This document shows, one piece after another, positions 17,062 to 45,460 of a stretch of 64,000 nucleotides of DNA. The stretch comes from Chloroflexota bacterium (GTDB taxonomy: Bacteria > Chloroflexota > Anaerolineae > Promineifilales > Promineifilaceae). Each line of letters opens with the position of its first letter. Position 1 is the first letter of the stretch. The stretch is taken from NCBI GenBank assembly GCA_022616275.1, contig JAKEFB010000042.1:158077-222076 (forward strand). The letters are read 5' to 3'. A program made the translations under genes and the position numbers. Below the pieces are notes generated by a model. The model searched no databases. It saw nothing but the letters and a program-made list of their open reading frames with translations, and was not told the DNA's origin.

Positions 17062-17090
17062 TTGACAACTTATCTGGATTGCAAGATAAT
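17062..17090 (+). promoter_or_regulatory. Sigma-70-type promoter for the molybdenum-hydroxylase/amidase operon
   Basis: TTGACA (17062-17067) and GATAAT (17085-17090) are 17 bases apart, upstream of the FAD-subunit gene. The -35 lies inside the short palindrome AAGTTG-A-CAACTT. That repeats the GTTGACAAC core of the divergent promoter at 10373-10397, although the outer arms differ. Confidence 0.68.
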
Positions 17091-17108
17091 TTTTTCACCT
17101 TACCGCAA

Positions 17109-17146
17109 GAGTTAGAGTAATCAACTCTAACTCTAACTCTAACTTT
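17109..17146. repeat. GTTAGA/TCTAAC short-unit inverted repeat
   Basis: GAGTTAGAGT is followed by ACTCTAACTCTAACTCTAAC. The unit is six bases and the two halves are inverted. It lies between the promoter and the first gene of the operon, so it would be transcribed as a small hairpin leader. Confidence 0.65.
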
Positions 17147-17180
17147 TCACCACTTACCGCCGCAGGGAAGAAACCGGTCC

Positions 17181-18056
17181 ATGAAGCCAGCGCCTTTTGA
17201 ATATATCGCCCCCAATTCTTTGCGTGAAGCCCTCCACATTCTGGCCGAAAAAGGCGGTGAGGCCAAGGTGCTGGCCGGCGGCCAGAGCCTGGTGCCGGCT
17301 ATGAACTTCCGGCTGGTGCAGCCAGGTCTGCTGGTGGATCTGGATCGCATTCCCGAGCTGGCGACTATTCGCCGGGCGAGCGACGGCGGCCTGCGCCTGG
17401 GAGCGATGACCCGGCAGCGCCGGCTGGAGCGAGACCCAGTGGTGGCCGAGGTCGCGCCGCTGCTGCACGAGACGATGCCGCACGTGGCCCACGTGCAAAT
17501 TCGCAACCGGGGCACGCTGGGCGGCAGCCTGGCCCACGCCGACCCGGCGGCCGAGTTGCCGGTGATTATGGTTGCTCTGGATGGCCGTTTCCGGCTGCAA
17601 AGCGCGGCCGGTGAACGGTGGGTAGCGGCCGGGGAATTCTTCCAGGGACTCTTTACCACAGCCCTGGCGCCGGAGGAGGTCCTGGTGGAGGTGGCCGTCC
17701 CACCGCGGCCGCCCCGCACCGGCTGGGCCTTCGTCGAGTTTGCCCGCCGCCGGGGAGATTACGCGCTGTTGGGCGTGGCTGCACTGCTGACGCTGGACGA
17801 GAACGGCGTTTGTCGCCAGGCGCGGCTGGTCTACCTGAACGCCGGCGAAACCCCGGTGAATGCCCGCCAGGCGGCGACGACACTGGTAGGAGAGGAACCA
17901 TCGCCGGAACGGTTTGCGGCCGCGGCCGAGGTGGCGGTGGAAAAGGAAATTAACCCTGGCGGCGACATCCACGCCTCGGCCGCTTACCTGCGCCACCTGG
18001 CCCGGGTGCTCACCCGGCGGGCGTTGGAAACGGCCGTGGGGCGGGTGAGATCATAG
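17181..18056 (+). CDS. Molybdenum hydroxylase FAD subunit (CoxM/CutM/XdhB type)
   Basis: The 291-aa flavoprotein subunit passes electrons from the Fe-S subunit to an acceptor in xanthine-dehydrogenase-family enzymes. FAD-site motifs are AGGQSLVPAMNFRLVQP near residue 32 and RNRGTLGGSLAHADPAAELP near 111; the C-terminal CO_deh_flav_C part begins near 180 (GWAFVEFARRRGDYALLGVA). The small subunit follows about 100 bases later, but the large subunit lies at 33786, an unusual split. Substrate specificity cannot be read from this subunit. Confidence 0.93.
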   Translation: MKPAPFEYIAPNSLREALHILAEKGGEAKVLAGGQSLVPAMNFRLVQPGLLVDLDRIPELATIRRASDGGLRLGAMTRQRRLERDPVVAEVAPLLHETMPHVAHVQIRNRGTLGGSLAHADPAAELPVIMVALDGRFRLQSAAGERWVAAGEFFQGLFTTALAPEEVLVEVAVPPRPPRTGWAFVEFARRRGDYALLGVAALLTLDENGVCRQARLVYLNAGETPVNARQAATTLVGEEPSPERFAAAAEVAVEKEINPGGDIHASAAYLRHLARVLTRRALETAVGRVRS

Positions 18057-18119: not shown

Positions 18120-18159
18120 TCGGAAACCTGCGGGGTCGGATAGCGTGGATAAGCGAAGG

Positions 18160-18681
18160 ATGACAGAGCGCGTGCATAGCATCACCGTCACCGTCAATGG
18201 CAAACCGTACCAACTACAGGTTGAGCCGCGCCTGTTGCTGTCTGATTTCCTGCGCCACGAACTGGGCCTGACCGGCACTCACGTCGGCTGTGAACACGGC
18301 GTCTGTGGGGCCTGCACCATTTTGTTTGACGGCCAGTCAGCTCGTTCGTGCATTATGCTGGCCGTGCAGGCCAACGGCCACACTATTACCACGGTCGAAG
18401 GGCTGGCCAGCGGCCCGGTGCGCGACGCGGCCGACGCCGGCCACCTGCATCCCCTCCAGCGCGCTTTTTGGGAGGCTCACGGCTTGCAGTGTGGCTTTTG
18501 CACCCCTGGTTTTCTCATGACGCTCATTCCTTTCCTGGAGGAAAACCCTGCACCCAGCGAAGCAGAAATTCGGGAGGCTATTTCCGGTAATTTGTGTCGC
18601 TGTACTGGCTACCAGCACATCGTGGATGCGGTAACGCTAGCAGCCGCCATGCTACAGGGTGACCGCCCGGGGGCCACATGA
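18160..18681 (+). CDS. Molybdenum hydroxylase [2Fe-2S] subunit (CoxS/CutS/XdhC type)
   Basis: The 173-aa subunit binds two [2Fe-2S] clusters. The plant-ferredoxin-type cluster uses CEHGVCGACTILFDGQSARSC; the second uses CGFCTPGFLM and CRCTGYQHIVDAV. It relays electrons from the molybdenum centre to FAD. I place the start at ATG 18160 (MTERVHSITVTVNGKPYQLQ); a GTG at 18145 would add five residues. The stop overlaps the amidase start by four bases, so the two are translationally coupled. Confidence 0.94.
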   Translation: MTERVHSITVTVNGKPYQLQVEPRLLLSDFLRHELGLTGTHVGCEHGVCGACTILFDGQSARSCIMLAVQANGHTITTVEGLASGPVRDAADAGHLHPLQRAFWEAHGLQCGFCTPGFLMTLIPFLEENPAPSEAEIREAISGNLCRCTGYQHIVDAVTLAAAMLQGDRPGAT

Positions 18682-19982
18682 ACGGGTTGCCGGTCACCTT
18701 GCCCCTCTTGCCGCTGGTGAACGGTCTGCGTTCGGGCGAAATTCCCCTGTTCAATTACCTGGACCAACTGGAAGCCCTTTTTCAGCAACGTGAACCGGAG
18801 GTACACTCTTTTTTACCGGAGGAGGGGCGGTTTGACCGGCTGCGCCGCGAGGCGCAACAGTTGCTCGACCATTACCCGCAACCCCTGACCCGGCCGCCGC
18901 TCTTTGGCATTCCCGTGGGGGTAAAGGATATCTTCCACGCAAAAGGTTTTGAAACGCGGGGTGGCAGCAGCCTGCCGCCGGAGGTGCTGCGCGGGCCGGA
19001 AGCGCGCAGCGTCACGCTGCTGAAAGAGGCCGGAGCCTTGATTTTGGGCAAGACGGTCTCGACCGAGTTTGCCTACTTTGGCCCAGGACCAACCCGTAAC
19101 CCCCATTGTCTGACTCACACGCCCGGCGGCTCCAGCAGCGGTTCAGCCGCGGCCGTAGCTGCTAATCTTTGTCCGATTGCTTTGGGGACCCAGACTATTG
19201 GCTCGATCATCCGGCCGGCCTCGTTTTGCGGTGTGGTCGGCTATAAACCGAGCTACGACCGGGTGACCCGGGCCGGCGTCATCCCGCTGGCGCCGTCGCT
19301 GGACCACGTCGGCGTTTTTACGGCCGGGGTGGCCGGGGCCGAGCTGGTGGCCAGTATTTTGTGCCCGGACTGGCACCTGGCCATCACCGGGCGACGGCCG
19401 GTCCTGGGCGTGCCGGAAGGCCCCTACCTGGAACGGGCTTCGGCCGAGGGGCTGGCCCATTTTGAGGCCACCTGCCAGCGGCTGGCCGAGGCCGGTTGTG
19501 TAATCCGGCGGTCGCCGACCATGCCTGATTTTGACGAGATCGTCGTCCGCCATAATTTGATCGTCGCGGCCGAGGCTGCCCAGGTTCACGCCGATTGGTT
19601 TGCCAACTACAGCGAGCTGTACCACCAGCGGACGGCCGATTTGATCCGGCGTGGCCGGCCTGTCGCGGTGGGTGATCTGGCCGAAGCCCTCACCGGCCGG
19701 CGGCGCTTGCGGCAGGAGCTGATCATGCTGATGGATGAGCAGGGCCTGGATTTGTGGATTACGCCAGCCGCGCCCGGCCCAGCACCAGAAGGGCTGGATA
19801 GCACCGGCGACCCGGTGATGAATCTTCCCTGGACCCACAGCGGGTTGCCGAGCGTTAACCTGCCGGCCGGGGCCAACGAGGCCGGATTGCCACTTGGCTT
19901 GCAGGTGGCCGGCCGCTGGTACGAGGACGAGACGTTGCTGGAGTGGGCGGCCGAACTGGAACCGGTGGTCCGGGCAAATTAG
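18678..19982 (+). CDS. Amidase-signature family hydrolase
   Basis: The 434-aa protein has the Ser-cisSer-Lys machinery: the lysine in FGIPVGVKDIF, the serine-rich GGSSSGSAAAVAA, and the nucleophile region GTQTIGSIIRPASFCGVVGY, where GGSI is IGSI. It hydrolyses an amide, ureide or aryl amide. Because it is coupled to a molybdenum-hydroxylase subunit and lies near an FdrA-like protein, it may cleave a ring-opened ureido or amide intermediate (ureidomalonase and allophanate hydrolase belong to this family). GatA is unlikely because gatB and gatC are not present. Confidence 0.88.
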   Translation: MNGLPVTLPLLPLVNGLRSGEIPLFNYLDQLEALFQQREPEVHSFLPEEGRFDRLRREAQQLLDHYPQPLTRPPLFGIPVGVKDIFHAKGFETRGGSSLPPEVLRGPEARSVTLLKEAGALILGKTVSTEFAYFGPGPTRNPHCLTHTPGGSSSGSAAAVAANLCPIALGTQTIGSIIRPASFCGVVGYKPSYDRVTRAGVIPLAPSLDHVGVFTAGVAGAELVASILCPDWHLAITGRRPVLGVPEGPYLERASAEGLAHFEATCQRLAEAGCVIRRSPTMPDFDEIVVRHNLIVAAEAAQVHADWFANYSELYHQRTADLIRRGRPVAVGDLAEALTGRRRLRQELIMLMDEQGLDLWITPAAPGPAPEGLDSTGDPVMNLPWTHSGLPSVNLPAGANEAGLPLGLQVAGRWYEDETLLEWAAELEPVVRAN

Positions 19983-20005
19983 CAGGCTTTTAGAGAGATT
20001 CTTGG

Positions 20006-20059
20006 GGTTCGTAGTAACCGTTTCAGCGGTCAAACGACTAAAGCCGTTACTACAAACCA
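20006..20059. repeat. GTAGTAAC imperfect palindrome
   Basis: GGTTCGTAGTAACCGTTTCA and its partner ending CCGTTACTACAAACC form an imperfect inverted repeat just before the CBS gene's ribosome site. The arms differ from the 7-8-base families. Confidence 0.65.
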
Positions 20060-20073
20060 GGGAGAATGATGAT

Positions 20074-20523
20074 ATGATGATCGTCAACCAGATTCTGCAG
20101 ACGAAGGGACACGACGTATGGGCGATTAGCCCCGATACGCCGGTAGTAGAAGCTCTCCAAGTGATGGCCCAAAAGCGGATTGGCGCTTTGCTGGTCATGG
20201 AGGAAGGGCAGGTGCAGGGCATTTTTTCCGAGCGAGATTATGCCCGCAAAGTGGTGCTGGAAGGCCGCTCGGCCACCGATACGCCGGTAGGCGAGATCAT
20301 GACGGCCAAGGTTTTTTACGTCCGGCCGGACAACACCGTGGAAGATTGTATGGCTATTATGACCGAGAAACGGATTCGCCATTTGCCCGTTTTTGCCGGC
20401 GACCACCTGGTCGGGGTCATCTCTATTGGCGACGTGGTCAAGGCGATGATTTCGGACCGGGAGTTTATGATTGAGCAACTGGTCAATTACATTGAAGGCC
20501 GGCGGTCGGCGGTGGTGATATAG
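20074..20523 (+). CDS. Two-CBS-domain protein
   Basis: The 149-aa cytosolic protein is a Bateman module of two CBS repeats: VVEALQVMAQKRIGALLVME with GIFSERDYARKVVLEGRSA, then TVEDCMAIMTEKRIRHLPVF with LVGVISIGDVVKAMI. Such modules bind adenosyl ligands and sense energy charge. The start at ATG 20074 follows an AGGGAGA site; longer readings translate the palindrome. It sits between amidase and fdrA with repeats on both sides and has no obvious dedicated partner. Confidence 0.9.
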   Translation: MMIVNQILQTKGHDVWAISPDTPVVEALQVMAQKRIGALLVMEEGQVQGIFSERDYARKVVLEGRSATDTPVGEIMTAKVFYVRPDNTVEDCMAIMTEKRIRHLPVFAGDHLVGVISIGDVVKAMISDREFMIEQLVNYIEGRRSAVVI

Positions 20524-20596: not shown

Positions 20597-22267
20597 ATGA
20601 ACGTTATTCAATACCAGGTGCGAGTCGGGGCCTATTACGACTCCATCGTCTTGATGCAGTTGCAGCGGGCCCTGGCCGGTTTGCCTGGCGTGTTGGATGC
20701 CGGCGTGGTGATGGCTACGCCGGCTAACCGCGAGCTGCTGGCGGCCAGCGGCTTGCTGCCGGAGGCGGCGGCCAATCCCGACGACCTGCTGATCGTGGTC
20801 AAGGCCGGCGACGCGGCCGCGGCCAAGGCGGCCCTGGCCCAGGTGGACGGGCTGTTGGCCCGCCGTCGCAGTAGCGGCGAACAGGCCTTCCGGCCGCGCA
20901 GCCTGGAGGTGGCGGTCAAACTGCTACCGGAGGCGCGGTGGGTGCTGGTTTCCGTGCCCGGCCGGTACGCCGCCGGGGTAGCTGGCGACGCCCTCCGGCT
21001 CGGCCGGCACGTCTTCCTCTATAGCGACAACGTGGCCCTGGAAGACGAGATCGCGCTGAAGCAGAGCGCCCGTGGCAAAGGGCTGTTGGTGATGGGGCCG
21101 GACTGCGGTACGGCGATCATTAACGGCGTGGGGCTGGGCTTTGCCAACCGGGTGCGGCGCGGTCCGGTAGGGCTGGTCGGCGCGTCTGGGACCGGCCTGC
21201 AGGGGGTAACCAGCGCCATTCACAATCAGGGCGGCGGTATCTCCCAGGCTATTGGGACCGGCGGCCGGGACTTGAAGGCCAGGGTCGGGGCCATCACTGC
21301 CCACCAGGCGTTGGAGCTGCTGGCCCGTGACTCCAATACGCGGGTGATTGTCCTGGTTTCCAAGCCGCCAGCGGCGGAGGTGGCGGCCGGCCTGCTGGCC
21401 GCTGCCCGGGCCACGGGCAAACCGGTCGTCGTGGAATTTATCGGCTATCCGCCGCCCGGGCGGCAAGTGGGCAACCTCCACTTTGCTACCAACCTGGCCG
21501 AAGCGGCCGGGCTGGCCGTGGAACTGGCCCAGGGCGAACATGCCCCGACGACCGGGACGCCGCCACTGGCCGGTTGCCTGCGGGGCCTCTTCTCCGGCGG
21601 AACGCTGGCTTACGAAGCAGTCCTGGCTTTGCAGGCCGTCCTGGCGCCGCTGTTCAGCAACACGCCGTTGCACGAATCTCAGCGCCTGCCCGACCCTCTG
21701 TATAGCCAGGGCCATACCATCCTGGACCTGGGCGAGGACATCTTTACCCAAGGCCGGCTGCACCCGATGATGGACAACGAATTGCGCCTGCGCCGGTTGC
21801 GCCAGGAAGCAGCCGACCCGGAGGTGGCCGTCATTCTTCTGGACGTGGTCCTGGGCGAAGGGGCGCACCCGGACCCGGCGGCCGAGCTGGCCCCGGCCAT
21901 TGCCGGCGTCAAGGCGGCCCGCCCCCTGGAGGTAGTCGCCGTCGTCGTTGGCACAGACCAGGACCCACAAGAGCTGGCCGGCCAGGTGGAACGCCTGGAA
22001 GCGGCCGGCGCAGTCGTCTTCCGAGACGTAACCCAGGCCGCGCAGCATGTGGCCCAGCGCCTGGGCCAGAAAATAGAGCAGGCTGCCCCGGCCGTGGACC
22101 TGGAACCGTTCCAGGCGCCGTTGGCAGCCGTAAACGTCGGCCTGGAATCGTTTCACGACAGCCTGGTGGCCCAGGGGGCAAAGGCGGTCCAGGTAGAGTG
22201 GCGGCCGCCGGCCGGGGGAAATGAGAAGTTAATGGCGTTATTGGCGAAGATGAAATCTAATGGGTAA
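20597..22267 (+). CDS. fdrA: FdrA-like protein (AllF-type carbamoyltransferase component)
   Basis: The 556-aa protein matches FdrA, a relative of the succinyl-CoA synthetase alpha chain. Motifs include MGPDCGTAIINGVGLGFAN (about 166-184), VGASGTGLQGVTSAI (194-208) and AIGTGGRDL (218-226); the C-terminal half has a second CoA-ligase-like unit (VILLDVVLGEGAHPDPA). In E. coli, FdrA (AllF), YlbE (AllG, DUF1116) and YlbF (AllH, DUF2877) together form oxamate carbamoyltransferase. A DUF1116 protein is two genes downstream here. The actual carbamoyl acceptor is unknown, and neither an AllH homologue nor a carbamate kinase is in the window. Confidence 0.9.
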   Translation: MNVIQYQVRVGAYYDSIVLMQLQRALAGLPGVLDAGVVMATPANRELLAASGLLPEAAANPDDLLIVVKAGDAAAAKAALAQVDGLLARRRSSGEQAFRPRSLEVAVKLLPEARWVLVSVPGRYAAGVAGDALRLGRHVFLYSDNVALEDEIALKQSARGKGLLVMGPDCGTAIINGVGLGFANRVRRGPVGLVGASGTGLQGVTSAIHNQGGGISQAIGTGGRDLKARVGAITAHQALELLARDSNTRVIVLVSKPPAAEVAAGLLAAARATGKPVVVEFIGYPPPGRQVGNLHFATNLAEAAGLAVELAQGEHAPTTGTPPLAGCLRGLFSGGTLAYEAVLALQAVLAPLFSNTPLHESQRLPDPLYSQGHTILDLGEDIFTQGRLHPMMDNELRLRRLRQEAADPEVAVILLDVVLGEGAHPDPAAELAPAIAGVKAARPLEVVAVVVGTDQDPQELAGQVERLEAAGAVVFRDVTQAAQHVAQRLGQKIEQAAPAVDLEPFQAPLAAVNVGLESFHDSLVAQGAKAVQVEWRPPAGGNEKLMALLAKMKSNG

Positions 22268-22365: not shown

Positions 22366-25300
22366 ATGCCTGATACTCCTCCTCCTACCTGGATTGGTCG
22401 TACCCTTGGCGGGCGGTACAGAATTGAGACCCTGCTCGGCCATGGGGGTATGTCTACCGTTTACAAGGCCAGCGACCCCAATTTGCAGCGGACGGTGGCC
22501 ATCAAGATGATCCACCCCCACCTGTCCGACAACCCCCAATTTGTCAGGCGTTTCGAGCAGGAGGCGGCGGCCGTGGCCCGGCTGCGCCACCCCAACATTG
22601 TCCAGGTCTACGACTTTAGCCAGCAACAGGGGGTCCACTACATCGTTATGGAGTTTGTCCCCGGGGAGACGCTGGAGCAGCGACTGGAATCGTTGCGTAA
22701 GGCTAATCTACGTTTGCCGCTGGAAGAGACGTTGCGCACGATGCTGGCCCTATGCGACGCCGTGGCTTACGCCCACGAACAGAACATGATCCACCGCGAT
22801 CTGAAGCCGTCCAACGTGATCATCAACCTGGTGGGCCAGGTCATTCTGACAGATTTTGGCGTGGCCAAGCTCGTCGGCGGCCGCTCTCTCACCGAAACGG
22901 GAGCGACCATCGGTACGGCCTCTTACATGTCGCCGGAACAGGTGACCGGCGAACCGGTAGACCATCGGGCCGACATTTACGCCTTGGGGGTGATGCTCTA
23001 CGAAATGGCGGCCGGCAAGCCGCCCTTTGAAGGCTCGTCACCCCTGACGGTGATGATGGCCCACGTCAACGAACCGGTGCCGGACATCCGCTTGACCAAC
23101 AGCAACATACCCGATTCCCTGGTGGCCGTCCTGGGCAAGGCCCTGGCTAAGAAACCGGTTCACCGCTTCCAATCGGCCCTGGAAATGGCCACGGCTTTGC
23201 AGGTTATTGGCCAGCAAATGATCGGGACTGCTTCCCGGCACGCGCTGCGCAGCACCGGAGGCTCTGCCAGGGTAACAAGCGACGTGGACACCCTCCCGGT
23301 GGGTGGGCAACCTGTCTCTGGGACGCAGCTAGTTACCCCGCGGCCGCCAGAGCGGGCTACAGCACCTGCACTGGCCGAATCCGCCGCGCCCAGGGCTAAA
23401 CGTAGAAGCCGGGCCCCTCTATACGCGGCCGTGGCCGCTATAGGAGTTCTTTTGCTGTTGCTCCTGGTGGCCGGCGCTTTTCTCCTGGTACCCCGCTTCT
23501 TCCGCACCTTGCCGGCTTCGGCCGGGATGGTCCGGGTTCCGGCCGGCGCGTATACCGTGGGCCTGGAAGGCGACGGCAGCAACTACGCCGCAGTCCGGCA
23601 AGTAGAGCTGGACGAATTTTGGATTGACCGGTACGAGGTCAGCAACGGCCAGTACGCCGAGTACGTGGCCGAGACAGACGGGCCGCGGCCATCCACCTGG
23701 GACGGCGGCAGCGCGCCGGCCGGCCAGGCGGACTACCCGGTCCAGGGTGCCAGTTGGGCGATGGCCAGCGCCTACTGCGAGTGGGCCAACAAACGGCTGC
23801 CTACAGAGGCGGAGTGGGAGGTGGCGGCTCGTGGCGCGGCGGGGCTGCTCTTCCCCTGGGGCAACGAGGCCGGCCTGGTCCGGCTTCCCCAGGGCAGCAG
23901 CTATCCGGTCGGCACGGTCCCGGCCAACCGCAGCCAGTTCGGCCTGTTTGACGCGGCCGGCAACGTCTGGGAGTGGGTAGATGAGCCTTATGAGGCGGTC
24001 CCCAATGGGCAGTTTGTTCTACGGGGCGGGGCGCACGACTTTTTGAAGGATATGGCCTACCGGCTGGTGGGCGACCCTACCGTGCCGACGATGTTTGCCA
24101 CGGCCGGCTTCCGCTGCGCGGCCGATGAGGTGGAGGTGGTCCCCGACGAAACGCTGCTGGTCTCCGATAATTTTGCCAACCCGCAGAGCGGCTGGCCGGA
24201 GATGAGAGAGGGCAGCACGCTCTTTGGCTACCACCCACCAAGCTACTACCACGTCCAATCCGGGGAGGCCAACCACGTGACGACCGTCTTTTACGGCGAG
24301 ACGTTCAAGGATATCAGTGTAGAAACTGCCGTGCTGGTGGACAGCACCGACAGCCAGGACGGCAACTTCCGCTATGGCCTGGCCTACGGCCAGCCAGAGG
24401 GGGCCTTGTACGTCTTTACCGTCTCGCCCCGCGCCGGGGCCTGGCAGGTGTTGCGGAGCACGCCAGACGGGCTGGAAGAGCTGCTCCAGGGGCCGGCCGA
24501 GGGCTTGCAAGGGTTGTCGGGCATTACCGATACATTGCGGGTGGACGCCGCCAACGGCGCTTTGACGTTTGCGATTAACCACCAGGTCGTGGTCCAGGTT
24601 ACGCCGGATAGTGGCCTACCGGCCGGCGACGTAGGCTTCTACGTGGAGACGTTTGACGAGACGCGAGCCCACGTCCACTACGATTCTCTGGCCATCCAGC
24701 AGTTGGTTTCCGGGGCGGCCGTGAACGCGCTGCTGTCGGACGATTTTGCCAACCCGGCCAGCGGCTGGCCGGAGGTCTCCGAGGGCAGCACCCTGTCCGG
24801 TTACCACCCGCCGGATTATTATCACGTCCAGTCAGAGGAACCGAATCACCGCAGCACGGCTTTTTACGATCAGGAGTTCGGGGACTTTACGATGGAAAGC
24901 CTGGTCTTTGTTGATAGCACAGATACCCAGGACGGCGATTTTTACTACGGCCTGGCCGTACGCCGCAACGGCGAGAGCTATTATGCCTTCCTGGTGTCGC
25001 CCCGGGCCGGGGCCTGGCAGGTGTTGAAAAGCAGCGCCACGGGCCAGCAGCTTCTGGCCGAGGGTGCGGCGACGTTGAACGGCCTGGCTGGCCGGGACCT
25101 GCTGCGGGTGGATGCCCAGGGGCCGGAATTGGTTTTCCACATTAACGGCCAGGCAGTGGCCCACGTGAGCGATAGCGAATACACCAGCGGGCAGGTTGGG
25201 TTCGTGGTAGAGACGGTGGACGAGACCAGGGCACACATTCACTACGAGTCGTTGCTGGTGACCGAGGTGGCGATGGACCTGGAGGCAGCGCCGACGGCCG

Positions 25301-26850
25301 TCTCGACCGGACCAACGCCAGGCAGCGAAACACCGCCCACGCCCGAGCCGACGGCGGAGCCGACTACGGCGTCGGTGGAGACGCCCACACCGGAAACGCC
25401 GGCGTCACCGTCCCAGGGGATGGTCCGGGTGGCGGCCGGGGCGTATACGGTTGGCGCGGCCGGATCGCCAGTCACGTTGAGTGAGTTTTGGATTGACGCC
25501 TACGAGGTGAGCAACGTCCAATACGCCCGTTTTCTGGCTGAGAATGGCGGCGACGCACCGGCTACGTGGGCCGGGGGCAACATCCCGGCCGGGTTGGAAG
25601 ATCACCCGGTGGAAGGGCTGACCTGGAACCAGGCGGCCGCTTATTGCGGCTGGGCCGGAAAACGCCTGCCGACTGAGACAGAGTGGGAAGCGGCAGCGCG
25701 TGGGCCGCAGGGCTGGCTCTATCCCTGGGGCAACGAGCGCAGCGCCGTGCCTTTGCCGACCAGCGGCACTTACACCGTCGGCGCCATTCCGGCCAACCGC
25801 AGCTTTTTTGGCGCTTTCGACATGGCCGGCAACGTCTGGGAGTGGGTGGATCAGCCTTACCTGGTGGTCCCGGAAGGGCAACAGGTGCTACGGGGCGGGG
25901 CCAACAATTTCCAGAATGACATGACTTTCCGGGCCGTGGGCGACCCGAACAGCAATATTATGTTTACTAATGCCGGGATTCGCTGCGCGGCCAGCCAGGT
26001 GGCGGTGGAGCTGGAAGGGGCGGTGTTGTTAACGGACAATTTTGCCGACCTGAACAGCGGTTGGTGGCAGGCGGCCGCGCCGGTTGGCCCCTATTTTTAC
26101 GGCTACCATCCGACTGATTTTTACCACGTCCAGGTGAGCGCGCCGGGTGATTGCCTTTCGGTTTACCACGATGTGACGCTGGACAATTTTATGGCCGAGG
26201 TGGACGTGTTTATCGCAGCGACGAATACGGAAAACGGCAATTTCCGCTATGGGCTGATGGTGCGGGAGACGGACAGCGACTTCTACGCCTTTGTCATTGC
26301 GCCGCGCAGCCAGAGCTGGCAGGTGTTGAAGAGCGCGCCAGAGGGGTTGCTGCTGATGGACGAAGGGCAGCAAACGACGATCCGGGGGGCCGGACAGGAA
26401 GTGAAGGACCGGCTGTTCGTCATTGCCAATGGGCCGGAGCTGACCTTCTTCGTCAACGGCGCGCTGGTCAGCCGGGTGTATGACGCTGATTACAGCAGTG
26501 GCCACGTTGGCTTTATGGTCGAGACGCTGGACGAAACGTACGCCCACGTTCACTATGACACCATTACCGTCTGGAGCCTGCCGCCGGGCGCGGCGGCGCC
26601 AGCGGGCGCGCCGCCGGCCAACCCGCAGTACCCGGTCAATGCGCCTATTTGCCGGGGGACGGTCTCGGCCGATAATTTGCTGTTGAGCTTTATCAGCTAC
26701 CAGATCAAGCCGGGCGATACGCTGATCGAGATAGCTCAAGAGTTTGGGGTGACGGTCGAGGATATCCTGGGCGCGAACGGCCGGACGATCGAGACGCCCA
26801 GTTTTATTCGCGCCGGCCAGACGATTGTCATTCCCCAACCGGAGGGATAG
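22366..26850 (+). CDS. Giant membrane Ser/Thr kinase with two SUMF domains, three beta-sandwich units and LysM
   Basis: The 1494-aa protein starts with a Hanks-type kinase (10-275): GHGGMSTVYKA, VAIKMI, HRDLKPSN near 142, DFGVAKL near 163 and SPEQ. A membrane segment lies near 348-371. Outside it come a SUMF/FGE-like domain (about 387-585, GMVRVPAGAYTVG to GFRCA), two LamG-like units (SDNFANPQSGWPE ... DETRAHVHY), a Thr/Pro linker, a second SUMF domain (from about 1018), a third LamG-like unit and a terminal LysM (from about 1444). It is likely a cell-wall-sensing receptor kinase. It separates fdrA from its expected partner and is only two bases from it. Confidence 0.88.
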   Translation: MPDTPPPTWIGRTLGGRYRIETLLGHGGMSTVYKASDPNLQRTVAIKMIHPHLSDNPQFVRRFEQEAAAVARLRHPNIVQVYDFSQQQGVHYIVMEFVPGETLEQRLESLRKANLRLPLEETLRTMLALCDAVAYAHEQNMIHRDLKPSNVIINLVGQVILTDFGVAKLVGGRSLTETGATIGTASYMSPEQVTGEPVDHRADIYALGVMLYEMAAGKPPFEGSSPLTVMMAHVNEPVPDIRLTNSNIPDSLVAVLGKALAKKPVHRFQSALEMATALQVIGQQMIGTASRHALRSTGGSARVTSDVDTLPVGGQPVSGTQLVTPRPPERATAPALAESAAPRAKRRSRAPLYAAVAAIGVLLLLLLVAGAFLLVPRFFRTLPASAGMVRVPAGAYTVGLEGDGSNYAAVRQVELDEFWIDRYEVSNGQYAEYVAETDGPRPSTWDGGSAPAGQADYPVQGASWAMASAYCEWANKRLPTEAEWEVAARGAAGLLFPWGNEAGLVRLPQGSSYPVGTVPANRSQFGLFDAAGNVWEWVDEPYEAVPNGQFVLRGGAHDFLKDMAYRLVGDPTVPTMFATAGFRCAADEVEVVPDETLLVSDNFANPQSGWPEMREGSTLFGYHPPSYYHVQSGEANHVTTVFYGETFKDISVETAVLVDSTDSQDGNFRYGLAYGQPEGALYVFTVSPRAGAWQVLRSTPDGLEELLQGPAEGLQGLSGITDTLRVDAANGALTFAINHQVVVQVTPDSGLPAGDVGFYVETFDETRAHVHYDSLAIQQLVSGAAVNALLSDDFANPASGWPEVSEGSTLSGYHPPDYYHVQSEEPNHRSTAFYDQEFGDFTMESLVFVDSTDTQDGDFYYGLAVRRNGESYYAFLVSPRAGAWQVLKSSATGQQLLAEGAATLNGLAGRDLLRVDAQGPELVFHINGQAVAHVSDSEYTSGQVGFVVETVDETRAHIHYESLLVTEVAMDLEAAPTAVSTGPTPGSETPPTPEPTAEPTTASVETPTPETPASPSQGMVRVAAGAYTVGAAGSPVTLSEFWIDAYEVSNVQYARFLAENGGDAPATWAGGNIPAGLEDHPVEGLTWNQAAAYCGWAGKRLPTETEWEAAARGPQGWLYPWGNERSAVPLPTSGTYTVGAIPANRSFFGAFDMAGNVWEWVDQPYLVVPEGQQVLRGGANNFQNDMTFRAVGDPNSNIMFTNAGIRCAASQVAVELEGAVLLTDNFADLNSGWWQAAAPVGPYFYGYHPTDFYHVQVSAPGDCLSVYHDVTLDNFMAEVDVFIAATNTENGNFRYGLMVRETDSDFYAFVIAPRSQSWQVLKSAPEGLLLMDEGQQTTIRGAGQEVKDRLFVIANGPELTFFVNGALVSRVYDADYSSGHVGFMVETLDETYAHVHYDTITVWSLPPGAAAPAGAPPANPQYPVNAPICRGTVSADNLLLSFISYQIKPGDTLIEIAQEFGVTVEDILGANGRTIETPSFIRAGQTIVIPQPEG

Positions 26851-28675: not shown

Positions 28676-29620
28676 ATGAGCAACTTAACAGTTAAAGAGA
28701 TCGAACAGGAATACCACCACCTGGCGCAGGCAGGGGCGTATGAGCAAGCGTTGGCGCTGGCGACGCGGGAGGCGCATCAGTTCCCGGAACACGCCCAGCG
28801 GATTGTGTACTACTGGCGTTTTCGGATGGCCGCTTTGCTGGGCGAGGCAGAGCTGACTTTGCAGTTGTTGGATGAGGCGCTCCAGGCCGGGCATTGGTAC
28901 AGTGGGCTGGAGGAGGATTCGGACTTTGCGCTGTTGTCCGGCCGGCCTGAGTTTGAACACCTGGGGCAACGATGCCGGGAAAGGCGGGCAGAGGCTATGG
29001 CGGCGGCCGTGCCGGTGATGGAAACCCTGGAACCGGGGCAGGCGGCCCAGCCTTATCCGCTGCTCATGGCCTTGCACGGCAACAACAGCACGGTGGCCGG
29101 CTTTCAGCGACACTGGCAAACGGCCGTGGCGGCCGGTTGGCTGGTCGGGCTGCCGCAATCTTCCCAGCAATATGGGCCGGACAATTACTCGTGGATGGAT
29201 TGGGAATGGTCTATCCAGGAAGCGCAGCAGCAGTGGCGGGCGCTACAGAGCAGTTACCCGGTGGATGCAGAACGGGTTGTGCTGGCCGGTTTCTCGATGG
29301 GTGGCGGCCTGGCTACCTACCTGGCCTTAAGCGGTACGATCCAGGTTCGCGGCCTCGTCCTGGTGGCGCCGTTTTTGCCGGACCCCAAGAATATGATTCC
29401 GCACCTCGAAGCAAGGAAGTATGGCACCGATTTACGGGTGTACCTGGCCGCCAGTGAGCAGGATGAGTATTGCCTGGATGTAGCCCGGCAGTTGGCCGAT
29501 TTTTTGCCACGCTATGAGGTGGCCTGCCAACTGGAAGTCTTTAGCGACCTGGGACACAGCTTTCCGGTGCAGCTTGAGCAGAATTTACCTCAGGTACTGG
29601 CTTTCGTAACGCAGTCGTAG
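28676..29620 (+). CDS. Alpha/beta hydrolase (phospholipase/carboxylesterase type)
   Basis: The 314-aa cytosolic protein has a helical N-terminal part of about 110 residues, then an alpha/beta hydrolase domain beginning YPLLMALHGNNSTVAGF. The nucleophile elbow is GFSMGG, the acid probably the Asp in ASEQDEYC, and the histidine lies in LGHSFP. No signal peptide is visible. It heads the transcript carrying the cyclase genes, so it may act on an ester or lactone in the same pathway; the substrate is unknown. Confidence 0.86.
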   Translation: MSNLTVKEIEQEYHHLAQAGAYEQALALATREAHQFPEHAQRIVYYWRFRMAALLGEAELTLQLLDEALQAGHWYSGLEEDSDFALLSGRPEFEHLGQRCRERRAEAMAAAVPVMETLEPGQAAQPYPLLMALHGNNSTVAGFQRHWQTAVAAGWLVGLPQSSQQYGPDNYSWMDWEWSIQEAQQQWRALQSSYPVDAERVVLAGFSMGGGLATYLALSGTIQVRGLVLVAPFLPDPKNMIPHLEARKYGTDLRVYLAASEQDEYCLDVARQLADFLPRYEVACQLEVFSDLGHSFPVQLEQNLPQVLAFVTQS

Positions 29621-31599: not shown

Positions 31600-31639
31600 A
31601 CCGGGTATTGGCCCCAATAACACAAGAGAGGAGAGCACC

Positions 31640-41300: not shown

Positions 41301-41328
41301 TTGACAGGGGTGTGGCTTGCAATACAAT
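41301..41328 (+). promoter_or_regulatory. Strong sigma-70-type promoter of the ABC importer
   Basis: TTGACA (41301-41306) and TACAAT (41323-41328) are 16 bases apart. Transcription from about 41335 rules out the upstream TTG at 41317 as the start of the permease gene and supports the ATG at 41350, with a leader of about 15 nt. Confidence 0.75.
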
Positions 41329-41349
41329 AACAGCACCCAGGTCAGTGTT

Positions 41350-42291
41350 ATGACTGATTCCTTGACACACCACCCGGCCGAAGTGGCCAGAAGCAGCAAT
41401 AGAATGACCAGCCTTTCCAGGCCCTCGTGGCAAGTGGCGCGGCCGGTGCGGCGGGCGCTCTCGTTTGTGTTGATGTTGCTGTTGCTGGCCCTGGTCTGGG
41501 AGGGAATGAAGTGGTTGGGCGGCAACCCCTGGCGGCCGGATGCCAATCCGCTGGGCATTGAACACGACCCGCCATACCGCTGGAAAGTTGCCTCTGACCT
41601 TAACCTGCCCCACCTGTGGGACATTGGCCGGGCCTTTTCTGAGCCGGCGCGGCGCAACGGGCCGCCGCTGGTGAACCTCCTGGCCGGGGCCGCCCTTTTC
41701 ACCTTCCGCGAGGCCATTACCGGCTTTTTGTTTGGCGCGTTGCTGGGGCTGCTTCTGGGAACGATCTTTGCCCATTCCGGCCTTTTGGAACGAGGCCTGA
41801 TGCCCTACGTGGTCGCCTCGCAGACTGTCCCTATCCTGGCTATTGCCCCGATGGTCATTATCTGGCTGAAGGCCGGCTGGGTTTCGGTGGCGGTTATTTC
41901 CGCTTACCTGACCTTTTTCCCGGTAACGATTAACACGCTGCGCGGACTGCGCTCGGCGGACCCGGTGGCCCTGGAGCTAATGCGGTCTTACGCCGCCAGT
42001 CGCTGGCAGACGTTGTGGAAGCTGCGCTTCCCGGCCGCCCTGCCGTACATTTTCACGGCGCTGAAAGTCTCGGCCACGGCCAGCGTGGTGGGGGCGATTA
42101 TCGGCGAACTGCCGTCGGGCATTCGCGATGGTCTGGGCGGGGCGATTCTCAACTTTAACCAGTATTACATTAGCGGCCCGTCGAAGCTGTGGGCGGCGAT
42201 TGTGGCCACGGCGGTGATCGGCATTGCCTTTTTTGTCATTATCACTCTCCTGGAGGCGGTGGTGGTGCGCGGGCGGCGGGAAGAGGAGTAA
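41350..42291 (+). CDS. ABC transporter permease 1 (SsuC/ThiX/RibX type)
   Basis: The 313-aa inner-membrane protein has a short cytoplasmic N-terminus and a large first extracytoplasmic segment, then about six spans. The EAA loop that contacts the ATPase is ELMRSYAASRWQTLWKLRFP near residue 208. It belongs to the BPD_transp_1 group used for taurine, sulfonate, thiamine-precursor, riboflavin and pyrimidine uptake. A second, different permease at 43133 suggests a heterodimeric channel. The start is fixed by the promoter at 41301. Confidence 0.9.
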   Translation: MTDSLTHHPAEVARSSNRMTSLSRPSWQVARPVRRALSFVLMLLLLALVWEGMKWLGGNPWRPDANPLGIEHDPPYRWKVASDLNLPHLWDIGRAFSEPARRNGPPLVNLLAGAALFTFREAITGFLFGALLGLLLGTIFAHSGLLERGLMPYVVASQTVPILAIAPMVIIWLKAGWVSVAVISAYLTFFPVTINTLRGLRSADPVALELMRSYAASRWQTLWKLRFPAALPYIFTALKVSATASVVGAIIGELPSGIRDGLGGAILNFNQYYISGPSKLWAAIVATAVIGIAFFVIITLLEAVVVRGRREEE

Positions 42292-42344: not shown

Positions 42345-43136
42345 ATGTCTGGTGATGCGGCGGTGGTTTCGGTGCAGGGGGTGAGTAAGATTTTTGGCGA
42401 GGGTAGCGCCAACCGGACGATCGCGCTTCAGGATATTAACCTGACTATCGAGCCGGGGGAGTTTATTTCGCTAATTGGGCCGTCTGGTTGCGGCAAGTCT
42501 ACGCTGCTGCGCCTGGTGGGCGACCTGATTGCACCGACGACGGGCACGGTCCTGGTCAACGGCAAGCCAGCTCCCCAGGCGCGCCTGGACCAGGATTACG
42601 GGATGGTGTTCCAGGCCCCGGTACTGTACGACTGGCGGAGTGTCAGTAAAAACGTCCAGTTGCCGCTGGAGCTGATGGGCTACGGCCGGCAGGAACGGAA
42701 GCAGCGGGCCGAGGAGATGCTGGCCCTGGTAGAGCTGGGCGGCTTTGAGCGCCACTATCCCTGGCAGTTGTCCGGCGGGATGCAGCAGCGGGTGTCCATT
42801 GCCCGGGCCCTGGCCTTCAAGCCGTCCATTCTATTGATGGACGAGCCGTTTGGCGCGCTCGACGAAATGACCCGCGAGCGGATGAATATGGAGCTGTACA
42901 ACATCTGGCAACGGACTGGCACGACGATTATTTTTGTCACCCACAGTATTCTGGAAGCCGTTTTCCTCTCCACCCGGGTGGTGGTGATGTCGGCCCGGCC
43001 CGGCCGGATTGCGGCCGAGATTGCTATAAACCTGCCGGCGCCGCGCGTTTTTGAGACCCGCGAAGACCCGCGCTTTTTTGAGCTGGCGACGAAGCTGCGC
43101 GAGGCGCTGCGGCACTCGGAAGGGGGTTTTCATTGA
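42345..43136 (+). CDS. ABC transporter ATPase (SsuB/TauB type)
   Basis: The 263-aa nucleotide-binding subunit has Walker A GPSGCGKST (45-53), a Q-loop (MVFQAPVLYDWRSV), signature LSGGMQQRVSIARAL, Walker B ILLMDEPFGALDEM and the switch His in FVTHSILEAVFLS. It powers uptake through the flanking permeases. Its stop codon overlaps the TTG start of permease 2 (TTGA), so the two are translationally coupled. Confidence 0.94.
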   Translation: MSGDAAVVSVQGVSKIFGEGSANRTIALQDINLTIEPGEFISLIGPSGCGKSTLLRLVGDLIAPTTGTVLVNGKPAPQARLDQDYGMVFQAPVLYDWRSVSKNVQLPLELMGYGRQERKQRAEEMLALVELGGFERHYPWQLSGGMQQRVSIARALAFKPSILLMDEPFGALDEMTRERMNMELYNIWQRTGTTIIFVTHSILEAVFLSTRVVVMSARPGRIAAEIAINLPAPRVFETREDPRFFELATKLREALRHSEGGFH

Positions 43137-44026
43137 GCAAGGGGCGAACTGGCGAGTCGCCGGCCGGCGCAGAAGTAGACGCTACCGGTTTCAGCGACGT
43201 GGCCCAGGCGGTGGACACAGCTCTAGGCGCGCCTGGCTCCCGAACTTCCGAGCGGGAGCGGCTGGGCCGTTATCTGCCGGCTGTGGTGGTCTTTGTGGTG
43301 GCCATTGCGCTGTGGGAGTTCCTGGTCTGGGCGCTGAAGATTGAGGTGTTTTTGCTGCCCCGGCCGTCGGTTATCGCCCGGACTTTTGTCGAGAATTTTG
43401 AGCGGCTGGGCCACATCGGCTGGTTTACGACGAAAGAGGCGCTGGGCGGGTTTGCCATTGGCTGCAGCCTGGGCATCCTGGTGGCCCTGGCCACAGCCCG
43501 CTGGACGACAGCCAGCGAAACGCTGTTGCCGTTTGCCATTGCCGCCAACTCGGTGCCGATCATTGCTTTTGCGCCGATCTTGAATAACTGGTTTGGTATT
43601 GACAACCCGCTGGCCAAGATGATGATCGTGGCCGTGATTGTCTTTTTCCCAATGATGATTAACACGGTGCGGGGGCTGACGCTGGTGGACCCGGCCGCGC
43701 TGGAGCTGATGCGTTCTTACGCGGCCAGCGAGTTCGAGATTTTGCGCCACCTGCGCCTGCCCAATGCCCTGCCTTACATGTTTAACGCTTTCAAGGTGGC
43801 GGCCGCTCTGAGCATGATTGGCGCGGTGGTGAGCGAGTATTTTGGCGGCAACCGCTCGGCGCTGGGGGTGTTTATTACTCAAGAGGCAGCCCAGTTCCGC
43901 TTTGAAAAAGCCTGGGCGGCGATTATCGTGGCCTGTGTGGTGGGGATTACCTTTTACCTGGTGATCCTTGGGATTGAGCGTCTGGTTATTCCCTGGCACG
44001 CTTCGTTGCGGCCGGAGGGGGAATAG
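43133..44026 (+). CDS. ABC transporter permease 2
   Basis: The 297-aa permease is of the same family as the one at 41350. Spans begin near residue 42 (LPAVVVFVVAIALWEFLVW), and the EAA loop is ELMRSYAASEFEILRHLRLP. Translation starts at a TTG overlapping the ATPase stop. Having two permeases for one ATPase indicates a heterodimeric membrane domain. In Chloroflexus the related RibXYZ importer takes up riboflavin, but family membership alone does not fix the substrate here. Confidence 0.9.
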   Translation: MSKGRTGESPAGAEVDATGFSDVAQAVDTALGAPGSRTSERERLGRYLPAVVVFVVAIALWEFLVWALKIEVFLLPRPSVIARTFVENFERLGHIGWFTTKEALGGFAIGCSLGILVALATARWTTASETLLPFAIAANSVPIIAFAPILNNWFGIDNPLAKMMIVAVIVFFPMMINTVRGLTLVDPAALELMRSYAASEFEILRHLRLPNALPYMFNAFKVAAALSMIGAVVSEYFGGNRSALGVFITQEAAQFRFEKAWAAIIVACVVGITFYLVILGIERLVIPWHASLRPEGE

Positions 44027-44293
44027 GGAACACAGAGGGCACAGAGGAGGCACAGAGAGCACAGAGAGAAAACAGAGTTTTTCTTTGTGGGTTTTGAGTG
44101 GGGTTGTAGGTTGCCCCTCTTAGAAGAGCCTTGTTTCTGGATGATTGTCGAAGGATAGGTGAAGGAGGTGAGGTTGGGTGGATGAAGGTTTAGCGGCCGT
44201 GGCTGGAAGCCGGCCATCGTTGGGAACCGGCCATGGCTTAAGGATGGTTAAAGAGGCGATTTGCCAAATCGCCCTACAAAATAGGAGGAGAAG
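44027..44293 (+). promoter_or_regulatory. Intergenic region with CACAGAG repeat and a hairpin before the binding-protein gene
   Basis: CACAGAGG-type units occupy 44031-44078, ending in GAGTTTTTCTTTG. GGCGATTTG (44255-44263) pairs with CAAATCGCC (44265-44273), a palindrome probably of another dispersed family. The ribosome site AGGAGGAGA follows. I find no TPP (CUGAGA) or FMN riboswitch core, although the neighbouring importer family often has one. Confidence 0.55.
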
Positions 44294-45460
44294 ATGAAGC
44301 TGTTTAATCGCAAGTTTATTATTTTGTTGCTCGTTTCAGGTTTGATCTCGGTGGCCTGTGGTGGGCCGGCGGCCGAGCCGACCCGGCCGCCGCAGCCGAC
44401 CGACGTGCCCGTCGTCGAGCCGACTGAAGAAACAGCGGCTGAGTTGACGCCGGTCACGCTGCAGTTGCAGTGGGTGGCCCAGTCGCAGTTTGCCGGCTAT
44501 TACGCGGCTAAAGACCTGGGCTTTTATGAAGATGAGGGGCTGGACGTGACCATCCTGGAAGGGGCGGTGGACATTGTGCCACAACAGGTGGTGGCGGCCG
44601 GGGAGGCGGAGTTTGGCATCGCCTGGGTGCCCAAGATGCTGGCTTCGCGAGAACAGGGCGCCGACCTGGTGAATATTGCCCAGGTGTTCCAGCGCAGCGG
44701 CACCTTGCAAGTGGCCTGGGCCGACTCCGGAATTGAAACCGTGGAAGATTGGGCCGGGAAGCGCGTCGGGACCTGGGGCTTCGGCAATGAGTGGGAAGTG
44801 TTTGCTGCGCTGCGCCAGGCCGGGATTGAGCCGGACGATCCCAACCAGGTGACGATTGTCCAGCAGCCGTTTGACATGGCCTTGCTGCTGAACCGGGAAA
44901 TTGACGTGGCCCAGGCAGAAATTTACAACGAGTACGCCCAGTTGCTGGAGGCGCCCAACCCGGAGACGGGCGAGCTGTACCAGCCGGAAGATTTTACCGT
45001 CTTCGACTACAACGAGATCGGCACGGCCATGCTGCAGGACCACATCTTCGTCCGCCAGGAGTGGCTGGCTGAGGAGGGCAACGAGGACATTGCCTCGCGT
45101 TTCCTGCGGGCCACCTTCCGGGGCTGGATCCACTGCCGCGATAACTTTGACGAGTGCGTGCAGATTGTCCTGAACAATGGCCCGACGCTGGGCGAAGGGC
45201 ACATGCGCTGGATGTTGAACGAGATCAACGCGTTGATCTGGCCGTCGCCGGAGGGGATTGGAGTGATGAACATGGACCTCTACCAGCAGACGGTAGACAT
45301 CTCGGTGGAATTCGGCGTGATTACGGTGGCGCCGGATGCCGAAGCGCTGCGCGCCGACCTGGCCCAGGCCGCGGTGACGGCCCTGCAAGAGGAGGGTTTA
45401 GACACCGCCGGTGGGGATTACACCAAGCAGGCGGTGGAGGTGACGCCGGGCGGCGAATAA
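44294..45460 (+). CDS. NMT1/THI5-like substrate-binding lipoprotein
   Basis: The 388-aa lipoprotein has a signal ending in ISVAC (Cys22) and a Pro/Thr/Glu linker, then a periplasmic-binding fold opening LQLQWVAQSQFAGYYAAKDL and GFYEDEGLDVTILEG, the hallmark of the THI5/SsuA group that binds pyrimidine, riboflavin, hydantoin or aromatic N-compounds. It delivers substrate to the two-permease importer upstream. The position of the CACAGAG repeat suggests separate, higher expression, as is common for binding proteins. Confidence 0.92.
   Translation: MKLFNRKFIILLLVSGLISVACGGPAAEPTRPPQPTDVPVVEPTEETAAELTPVTLQLQWVAQSQFAGYYAAKDLGFYEDEGLDVTILEGAVDIVPQQVVAAGEAEFGIAWVPKMLASREQGADLVNIAQVFQRSGTLQVAWADSGIETVEDWAGKRVGTWGFGNEWEVFAALRQAGIEPDDPNQVTIVQQPFDMALLLNREIDVAQAEIYNEYAQLLEAPNPETGELYQPEDFTVFDYNEIGTAMLQDHIFVRQEWLAEEGNEDIASRFLRATFRGWIHCRDNFDECVQIVLNNGPTLGEGHMRWMLNEINALIWPSPEGIGVMNMDLYQQTVDISVEFGVITVAPDAEALRADLAQAAVTALQEEGLDTAGGDYTKQAVEVTPGGE

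Follow-up and report, generated by a model that had tools for sequence, protein, structure and literature searches.

A conserved gene cluster of Anaerolineae joining FdrA-AllG, a molybdenum hydroxylase, cyclase-family proteins and an amidase: a candidate operon for pyrimidine breakdown

Gene Content of the Locus

The DNA analyzed here is a stretch of 64,000 nucleotides from a Chloroflexota bacterium (contig JAKEFB010000042.1, positions 158,077 to 222,076), called the window in its full length, which belongs to a metagenome-assembled genome (MAG) of 8.53 Mb with 98% completeness and 5.5% contamination. It carries genes for FdrA and AllG (DUF1116), two subunits of a carbamoyltransferase, which lie together with genes for the three subunits of a molybdenum hydroxylase, two cyclase-family proteins and an amidase, followed by an ABC importer. 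This set may represent a catabolic operon for a pyrimidine-type nucleobase. The genes were assigned from a Pfam scan of the region 15904-51609, and those of the core and of the importer are as follows:

17181..18056, + strand: CoxM-type flavin adenine dinucleotide subunit of a molybdenum hydroxylase (Pfam FAD_binding_5 and CO_deh_flav_C), kept in the operon of relatives
18145..18681, + strand: CoxS-type [2Fe-2S] subunit (Pfam Fer2_2), kept in the operon of relatives
18678..19982, + strand: amidase-signature enzyme, candidate malonamate hydrolase (Pfam Amidase; malonamidase E2 nearest among solved structures)
20597..22267, + strand: FdrA (AllF), carbamoyltransferase subunit (NCBIfam FdrA NF004760, 533.5 bits, cut-off 433)
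26853..28094, + strand: AllG (DUF1116), carbamoyltransferase subunit (Pfam AllG PF06545, 319 bits, cut-off 27)
29683..30285, + strand: cyclase 1 (PF04199), truncated by a frameshift, with an intact motif SNHIGTHLDGEIHF (Pfam 107 bits, cut-off 23; motif; three-frame translation)
31571..33304, + strand: cyclase 2 with two cyclase domains, candidate ring-opening hydrolase (Pfam Cyclase twice, 198 bits over two stretches, cut-off 23)
33786..36143, + strand: CoxL-type molybdopterin subunit, candidate uracil-type ring hydroxylase (Pfam; PYRGAGR motif; glutamate region kept)
41317..42291, + strand: ABC permease of the importer (Pfam BPD_transp_1)
42345..43136, + strand: ABC ATPase of the importer (Pfam ABC_tran)
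43133..44026, + strand: ABC permease of the importer (Pfam BPD_transp_1)
44294..45460, + strand: NMT1/THI5-like substrate-binding protein (Pfam NMT1; solved relatives 4nmy and 3ix1)

All parts named by an initial annotation of this DNA, namely the hydroxylase subunits, amidase, FdrA, DUF1116 protein, cyclases and THI5-like importer, were recovered on the plus strand with Pfam and NCBIfam models. Its description of three cyclase domains with intact or altered metal motifs also stands, two being intact and the first domain of cyclase 2 altered; it has to be amended in that cyclase 1 is truncated by a frameshift and several genes within the span look inserted.

Conservation and Linkage of the Gene Set

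The occurrence of the gene set was surveyed in loci and genomes that are designated by L- and G-numbers, respectively. A search for DUF1116 in 298 genomes of the class identified 120 positive genomes with 132 match rows; 120 stretches were taken around these matches, and 10 more rows in 9 genomes were left out. The best 80 of at least 568 stretches with AllG relatives from named genomes were added, some of these genomes overlapping with the class set. Including the window, this yielded 201 loci, 199 of them with a called AllG, and 183 distinct AllG proteins, which were divided by bit score against the AllG of the window into 132 of type A (the type of the window), 34 of type B and 17 of type C, so that partial open reading frames (ORFs) at contig ends may be mistyped. 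Because many contigs are short, the gene counts per locus are lower bounds, and since genes were called by a simple script, short or odd ones may have escaped. Pfam and NCBIfam models were applied to one or a few representatives of each neighbor family, and 20 stretches of 20 kb from two genomes with type-A loci served as controls. The loci beyond Chloroflexota are labeled as Acidobacteriota, Gemmatimonadota, KSB1, Armatimonadota, Symbiobacterium and Puniceispirillum, with the provision that labels of MAGs can err.

Among the 132 type-A loci, 110 contain FdrA, 103 a cyclase, 98 a Cox subunit and 89 the latter two together. Of 500 core genes located up to 12 kb from AllG, 488 have the same orientation as AllG, and the median gaps are short, amounting to 24 bp between FdrA and AllG (83 pairs), 57 bp between AllG and cyclase (75 pairs) and 67 bp between cyclase and CoxL (25 pairs). 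The commonest arrangement in the 65 loci with FdrA, cyclase and CoxL on the AllG strand is FdrA-AllG-Cyc-CoxM-CoxS-CoxL (26 loci), followed by that of the window, CoxM-CoxS-Amidase-FdrA-AllG-Cyc-CoxL (20 loci); in the window, this conserved order is interrupted by additional inserted genes, and the first of the cyclase genes is frameshifted. A comparison of 12 genomes by hand revealed a cyclase gene within 10 kb of AllG in all 12 and a MoCoBD_2 gene in 11. None of the 20 control stretches contains FdrA, AllG, cyclase, Cox, amidase, NCS2 permease, Bmp, AllH, AMP ligase or dihydropyrimidinase genes, and the labels printed for them include ABC (3), CoA-transferase III (1) and short-chain dehydrogenase/reductase (1).

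The two-domain cyclase shows the same linkage at the level of genomes. It is present in 48 of the 298 genomes of the class, 44 of which belong to the 120 with AllG (hypergeometric probability 7e-16, kinship being ignored); in 35 of these 44 genomes, the two genes are no more than 10 kb apart. In the family of the window, it occurs in all 10 genomes with AllG and in none of the 7 without AllG. The grouping of these genes exceeds chance, and the linked set, with the gene families as named, is conserved in Anaerolineae and in MAGs labeled as other phyla. As expected from the initial annotation, fdrA, DUF1116, cyclase and CoxL genes are mostly linked in relatives and not scattered, the exceptions within the family being treated below.

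The amidase occurs without a CN-hydrolase in 36 of the 132 type-A loci and a CN-hydrolase without the amidase in 22, both being present in 4 and neither in 70; mutual exclusion of the two is weakly indicated, the tested CN-hydrolases being of at least two kinds. An association between the form of the cyclase and the amidase (Fisher p 0.006) is not independent evidence because the loci are related.

The Cyclase-Family Proteins

Cyclases of the family PF04199 are characterized by a metal motif of the HxGTHxD type. In the window, cyclase 1 has retained the His-His-Asp residues of this motif, as has domain 2 of cyclase 2 (HLATHMD), and domain 1 of cyclase 2 reads SNNTGTHLVGPRAF (NTGTHLV), which departs from the HxGTHxD-type pattern. 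The first His and the Asp have been lost from domain 1 in 12 of 12 aligned two-domain proteins, all of which keep both residues in domain 2, and since the loss is common to all of them, the altered motif appears to be an old and fixed feature.

The slot beside AllG is occupied by different cyclase forms in the 132 type-A loci, namely by a single-domain form (GTHLDAP or ATHLDSP) in 49, by the two-domain form in 42, by the two-domain form together with a GTHLDGE form in 6 and by the GTHLDGE form alone in 4; two loci are unclear and 29 show none. Cyclase 1 of the window belongs to the third, GTHLDGE form. Its ORF comprises 200 aa, compared to about 291 aa in homologues that look full-length, with a frameshift near 30200, and the remainder runs on to about 30557 in another frame, as seen from a three-frame translation against the 291-aa homologue of L033. 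Because this remainder still reads well, the frameshift is either recent or an assembly error.

Like kynurenine formamidase and other PF04199 members, the window proteins have the cyclase domain, and cyclase 1 and the second domain of cyclase 2 also have the metal motif, but cyclase 2 differs from kynurenine formamidase as a two-domain fusion with a fixed altered motif in its first domain. A role in a tryptophan/kynurenine route was rejected, the scores against the arylformamidase model (49 and 57 bits) lying far under the cut-off of 223.

The Carbamoyltransferase, AllH and Carbamate Kinase

FdrA and AllG of the window share 41 and 52% identity, respectively, with the Escherichia coli proteins. 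A quick tree of the AllG proteins, in which branches of type C and E. coli are long, separates those of type A from types B and C and from the E. coli protein, the dividing branch having 99% support in the SH-like approximate likelihood ratio test (SH-aLRT). According to the accessible text of the report on the E. coli enzyme, AllF, AllG and AllH are all required for activity, and the complex interconverts oxalurate plus phosphate and oxamate plus carbamoyl phosphate, as assayed in the oxalurate-forming direction (PMC11326118).

The initial annotation had noted that neither AllH (DUF2877) nor carbamate kinase is encoded in the 64-kb window, which holds; in the rest of the source genome, no DUF2877 gene was found and a carbamate-kinase-type gene was detected on another contig. 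AllH was found in 22 of 40 genomes with type-A AllG, encoded near the type-A operon in some (L085, L111, L033, L039) and on other contigs in others, and in G018 it adjoins a second AllG of type C. It was not found in the other 18 genomes, which include the source genome and the single-contig genome G236. A divergent AllH hidden in the source genome was rejected as an explanation because a full-length profile found none, and gene f20 of the Caldilineaceae-type loci was rejected as a substitute for AllH by hhalign (probability 0.2).

The carbamate-kinase-type gene of the source genome scores 348 bits, under the cut-off of 358, and its product is 38% identical to AllK and 54% identical to the operon copy of L041 (G281); it is a probable carbamate kinase. 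G281 belongs to the family of the window and contains a carbamate kinase gene over the curated cut-off between AllG and cyclase; of all genomic data, this arrangement hints most clearly at carbamoyl phosphate as the product. Carbamate kinases over the cut-off are encoded in 25 of the 40 type-A genomes, and such a gene is located nearby in only 2 of 131 type-A loci.

Some further arrangements were observed around FdrA and AllG. A cytochrome P450 gene is located between them in L040 (2069-3259), and similar-sized ORFs occupy this position in L187, L195 and L197. The type-B loci L059, L064, L070 and L097 contain carboxyltransferase and OadB-type genes, three of the four with AllH and none with a cyclase in the stretch, the carboxyltransferase of L064 giving methylmalonyl-CoA decarboxylase as its top match under the cut-off; these loci perhaps represent a different FdrA-AllG system. 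In G030 (L090) and G131 (L110), AllG lies within open frames of 995 and 1169 aa, respectively, which suggest fusions, perhaps of FdrA with AllG. Finally, 15 of the first 121 loci contain, in linkage with FdrA-AllG, a member of a family of proteins of about 242 aa, U242 (e.g., L147:1892-2617), and the one member scanned gave no Pfam match.

Molybdenum Hydroxylase, Amidase and Importer

The active-site loop of the CoxL-type subunit carries the motif PYRGAGR. Form I CoxL of carbon monoxide (CO) dehydrogenase is characterized by the motif AYxCSFR, which is absent from the window protein. Among solved structures, quinoline 2-oxidoreductase is the best match (538 bits), followed by CO dehydrogenase CoxL (504 bits), and the glutamate region GIKGAGEAG is kept. 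The window set differs in its operon context from quinoline 2-oxidoreductase and form II CoxL-like hydroxylases. CO oxidation was rejected as the function of the enzyme because of the PYRGAGR motif and because it leaves the linkage to cyclase and carbamoyltransferase unexplained.

The solved structures closest to the amidase are malonamidase E2 entries (172 bits), followed by a "probable amidase" (156 bits). Both the window amidase (TQTIGSIIRP) and malonamidase E2 (TQTGGSVIRP) contain an Arg at position +3 of the signature Ser; in malonamidase E2, this residue is Arg-158, which binds malonamate. The Ser-x-x-Arg-Pro signature is found in 33 of 40 distinct operon amidases; of the other seven, four are partial ORFs, the two long ORFs of L219 and L220 also have Arg at Ser+3, and the divergent L162 has Arg at Ser+2. 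One Amidase-family paralogue of the source genome shows GGSVRQP at this position. The operon amidase thus shares the signature of malonamidase E2 but is distant from it, and malonamate hydrolysis is a candidate activity.

The substrate-binding protein of the importer has two solved relatives, 4nmy with an unnamed ligand (64.6 bits) and the pyrimidine-compound binder 3ix1 (46 bits). ABC importers also lie beside the operon in some relatives, with THI5-type binding proteins in 9 of the 132 type-A loci. The THI5-like importer emphasized by the initial annotation is indeed present, but two further types of carrier also accompany copies of the operon.

Companion Genes in Relatives

Further indications on the ring and the product come from genes linked to the operon in other genomes. 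Three NCS2 permeases (L042 and L085 of type A, L062 of type B) score 215-259 bits against the uracil permease model (cut-off 477) and 129-140 bits against that of xanthine permease. Amidohydrolases encoded just after CoxL or AllH (L154, L157, L159, L179) match cytosine deaminase best in all four cases tested (258-288 bits, cut-off 438), cytosine-deaminase-like genes being present in 5 of 131 type-A loci. Both adjacent dihydropyrimidinases that were tested (L037, L106) exceed the cut-off, the label of this family occurs in 16 of the 132 type-A loci, and Bmp/Nup-type ABC genes occur in 17. As to the product, the linked AMP ligases match malonyl-CoA synthase best in eight of eight cases (488-565 bits, cut-off 558, one over it), and three linked CoA-transferases (L092 and L130 of type A, L082 of type B) all match succinate-glutarate CoA-transferase best (416-427 bits, cut-off 750), with 287-292 bits for oxalate CoA-transferase. 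Companion genes point to a pyrimidine as the probable class of substrate and to a C3 dicarboxylate, probably malonate, as the product.

Proposed Pathway and Alternatives

It appears fairly probable that the genes constitute a catabolic operon for a pyrimidine-type nucleobase, which would convert uracil via barbiturate and ureidomalonate to malonamate plus carbamoyl phosphate, and further to malonate. We infer each of the reactions from gene linkage and family assignments. An importer, either the THI5-type ABC system of the window or the NCS2 permeases or nucleoside-type ABC systems of relatives, would take up uracil or a related base, and the CoxMSL molybdenum hydroxylase would oxidize uracil to barbiturate. 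The ring of barbiturate would then be opened by a cyclase-family hydrolase, yielding ureidomalonate, an acylurea like oxalurate, which FdrA-AllG would cleave by phosphorolysis to carbamoyl phosphate and the amide malonamate. The amidase would release ammonia from malonamate to form malonate, from which those lineages that have the linked ligase would make malonyl-CoA, and the probable carbamate kinase encoded elsewhere in the source genome may convert carbamoyl phosphate to carbamate with the generation of ATP. The sequence of import, ring hydroxylation, ring opening and phosphorolysis had already been suggested in the initial annotation, and it fares well as one conserved and linked gene set, but less so in those family members in which the set is split; its interpretation is therefore partly supported, and the pyrimidine substrate class and the malonate product, both probable, were added by the present analysis.

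A more far-reaching version of this proposal can be put forward tentatively and may well turn out to be wrong. The operon would represent a previously undescribed, energy-conserving oxidative pyrimidine pathway with the two-domain cyclase as a new barbiturate hydrolase, an AllH-free FdrA-AllG acting as ureidomalonate carbamoyltransferase, and carbamoyl phosphate used for ATP synthesis. As part of the same version, the AllH-free pathway would be common in Anaerolineae and present in MAGs labeled as Acidobacteriota, Gemmatimonadota and other phyla.

Several observations weigh against the pyrimidine pathway. Within the family of the window, 4 of 10 AllG loci (L034, L036, L038, L040) have no cyclase and no Cox gene within the stretch taken around AllG, L040 being a contig of 5.3 kb, and the two-domain cyclase is located on a separate contig in 6 of 10 genomes (G151, G181, G234, G244, G254, G281). 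G244, G254 and G281 have an AllG contig that is short or breaks off close to AllG, and the two genes look truly apart in G151, G181 and G234; in this family, the genes are thus more consistently present together in a genome than next to each other. A cyclase is also missing from the 29 type-A loci mentioned above, some of which are cut at contig ends; in L219 and L220 of Acidobacteriota, it is lacking although the cluster is otherwise complete. AllH was not found in the source genome with either the Pfam model, for which the E. coli control was positive, or the full-length profile, and of the 34 type-B loci, none has the amidase and nine have AllH. With regard to the individual proteins, CoxL exceeds the cut-off of an NCBIfam model for an aerobic CO dehydrogenase subunit (CODH_aero_grp5, 994 bits, cut-off 950) and would be named accordingly, whereas the top NCBIfam matches of CoxM, CoxS, the amidase and the binding protein lie under their cut-offs, these being glyceraldehyde dehydrogenase subunits for CoxM and CoxS, GatA and another generic amidase for the amidase (183 bits), and the aliphatic-sulfonate family SsuA for the binding protein (29.5 bits, far under the cut-off of 163.5), which may still be a sulfonate binder, the alternative named in the initial annotation. 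The matches of the companion permeases, deaminases and CoA-transferases and of seven of the eight ligases are likewise under the curated cut-offs, and no cytosine deaminase, malonyl-CoA synthase, dihydropyrimidinase or NCS2 permease was found among the scanned genes of the window, the rest of the genome not having been searched for them. In addition, L172 (1359-4333) contains malate synthase and isocitrate lyase family genes between an NCS2 permease/CoxG and XdhC, which would fit glyoxylate chemistry equally well.

The main rival explanation is an oxalurate route, because it requires no new substrate of FdrA-AllG. A hydantoin-type ring would be oxidized to parabanate, which the cyclase would open to oxalurate; FdrA-AllG would then form oxamate and carbamoyl phosphate, and the amidase would convert oxamate to oxalate. 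Oxalurate and oxamate are the only demonstrated substrate pair of AllFGH known to us (accessible text of PMC11326118), some relatives have dihydropyrimidinase/hydantoinase genes next to the operon, oxalate CoA-transferase models also match the linked family III CoA-transferases with 287-292 bits, and one relative carries glyoxylate-shunt family genes in its cluster. We nevertheless consider this route unlikely, given that all eight ligases match malonyl-CoA synthase and all three CoA-transferases succinate-glutarate CoA-transferase best (all but one match under the cut-off), that malonamidase E2 is nearest to the amidase among solved structures, and that the type-A AllG clade is separate from E. 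coli AllG in the quick tree. Moreover, uracil-type permeases and cytosine-deaminase-like genes would be unexpected for a hydantoin.

Marginally less probable still is a pathway for another nucleobase or N-heteroaromatic compound of the hypoxanthine/xanthine, nicotinate or quinoline type, from which the cyclase would produce an aryl- or acylurea for phosphorolysis by FdrA-AllG. Such a substrate would agree with quinoline 2-oxidoreductase as the nearest solved relative of CoxL, and NCS2 and Bmp carriers serve purines, too. The accessible text of a study on nitrifiers further reports allFGHK on their contigs, in some archaeal ones together with purE, and proposes purine products (PMC12625717). 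However, the top matches of permeases and deaminases are those for pyrimidines, and purine rings would leave the malonate-type ligase and the malonamidase-like amidase unexplained. Finally, a loose assembly of a CO dehydrogenase and unrelated genes that merely neighbor each other in a large genome, for which the NCBIfam name of CoxL, the unrelated insertions within the span and the separated genes of some family members could be cited, is very improbable and largely refuted by the order, strand and co-occurrence kept across many lineages, and CoxL carries PYRGAGR in place of the form I motif AYxCSFR.

Relation to Known Systems

The system most similar to the window set is AllFGH (FdrA-YlbE-YlbF) with AllK of E. 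coli, with which it shares FdrA and AllG as well as a carbamate-kinase-type gene that is present in the genome and located within the operon of one relative. It differs from the E. coli system by the apparent lack of AllH in the source genome, the absence of allantoin genes among the window genes scanned, the linkage to a molybdenum hydroxylase, a cyclase and an amidase, and the separate clade of its AllG. The nearest published context appears to be allFGHK next to biuret genes in nitrifiers (accessible text of PMC12625717).

The oxidative pyrimidine route described previously proceeds via barbiturate with barbiturase and ureidomalonase and ends in malonate and urea; in the accessible text of the report, it is called rare, with AtzD/Bar homologues in 3% of 6423 genomes (PMC3758960). 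The pathway proposed here would have the intermediates and the malonate product in common with it, and we assign the first step to the molybdenum hydroxylase, but the ring would be opened by a cyclase and the carbamoyl group would leave as carbamoyl phosphate, not as urea. Barbiturase (PF09663) was found in none of the 40 type-A AllG genomes in a search without a positive control.

No description of the operon was found in the titles and openings of abstracts of the literature searched, the scope of which excluded most subscription journals and all bioRxiv preprints, and FdrA/DUF1116 proteins are tied to only one tested enzyme within it. If the pyrimidine pathway is true, many uncultured Chloroflexota and other lineages would degrade pyrimidines by oxidation, with the carbamoyl group as a source of ATP, and ureidomalonate as a new carbamoyltransferase substrate as well as a new ring-opening hydrolase would become testable. 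It also raises the question of the reason for which part of the type-A clade manages without AllH.

Additional Genes in and Around the Span

The following genes interrupt or adjoin the conserved order in the window:

19894..20523, + strand: protein with two CBS domains (Pfam CBS), likely an insertion outside the conserved core
22366..26850, + strand: protein of 1494 aa with protein kinase, FGE-sulfatase and LysM domains (Pfam), an insertion
28676..29620, + strand: alpha/beta hydrolase (Pfam), likely an insertion
33348..33719, + strand: GxxExxY-type protein (Pfam PDDEXK_3), likely an insertion, also near some other operon copies
45554..46426, + strand: NmrA-like reductase (Pfam NmrA), operon-linked in some relatives

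The kinase/FGE/LysM gene, the CBS gene, the alpha/beta hydrolase gene, two small ORFs and the GxxExxY gene look like insertions into the span, and two response regulators are among the further genes outside the conserved order. The called start of the CBS gene overlaps with the amidase gene, and the true start is probably further downstream. The kinase/FGE/LysM gene is located between fdrA and allG with gaps of 98 and 2 bp, respectively; no such gene was found at this place in the other mapped loci or among 131 type-A loci (E 1e-30), and weaker ORFs resembling it occur elsewhere in L058 and L174. Regarding the smaller frames, an ORF after allG (about 28104-28355) looks by eye like a YefM-type antitoxin gene, and a pair between the two cyclase genes (30578-31599) consists of a DUF5678-like ORF (21.1 bits, cut-off 23.2) and an ORF that by eye resembles a retropepsin-type protease. 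NmrA-like genes, such as the one downstream of the importer, are present in 23 of 131 type-A loci compared to none of the 20 control stretches.

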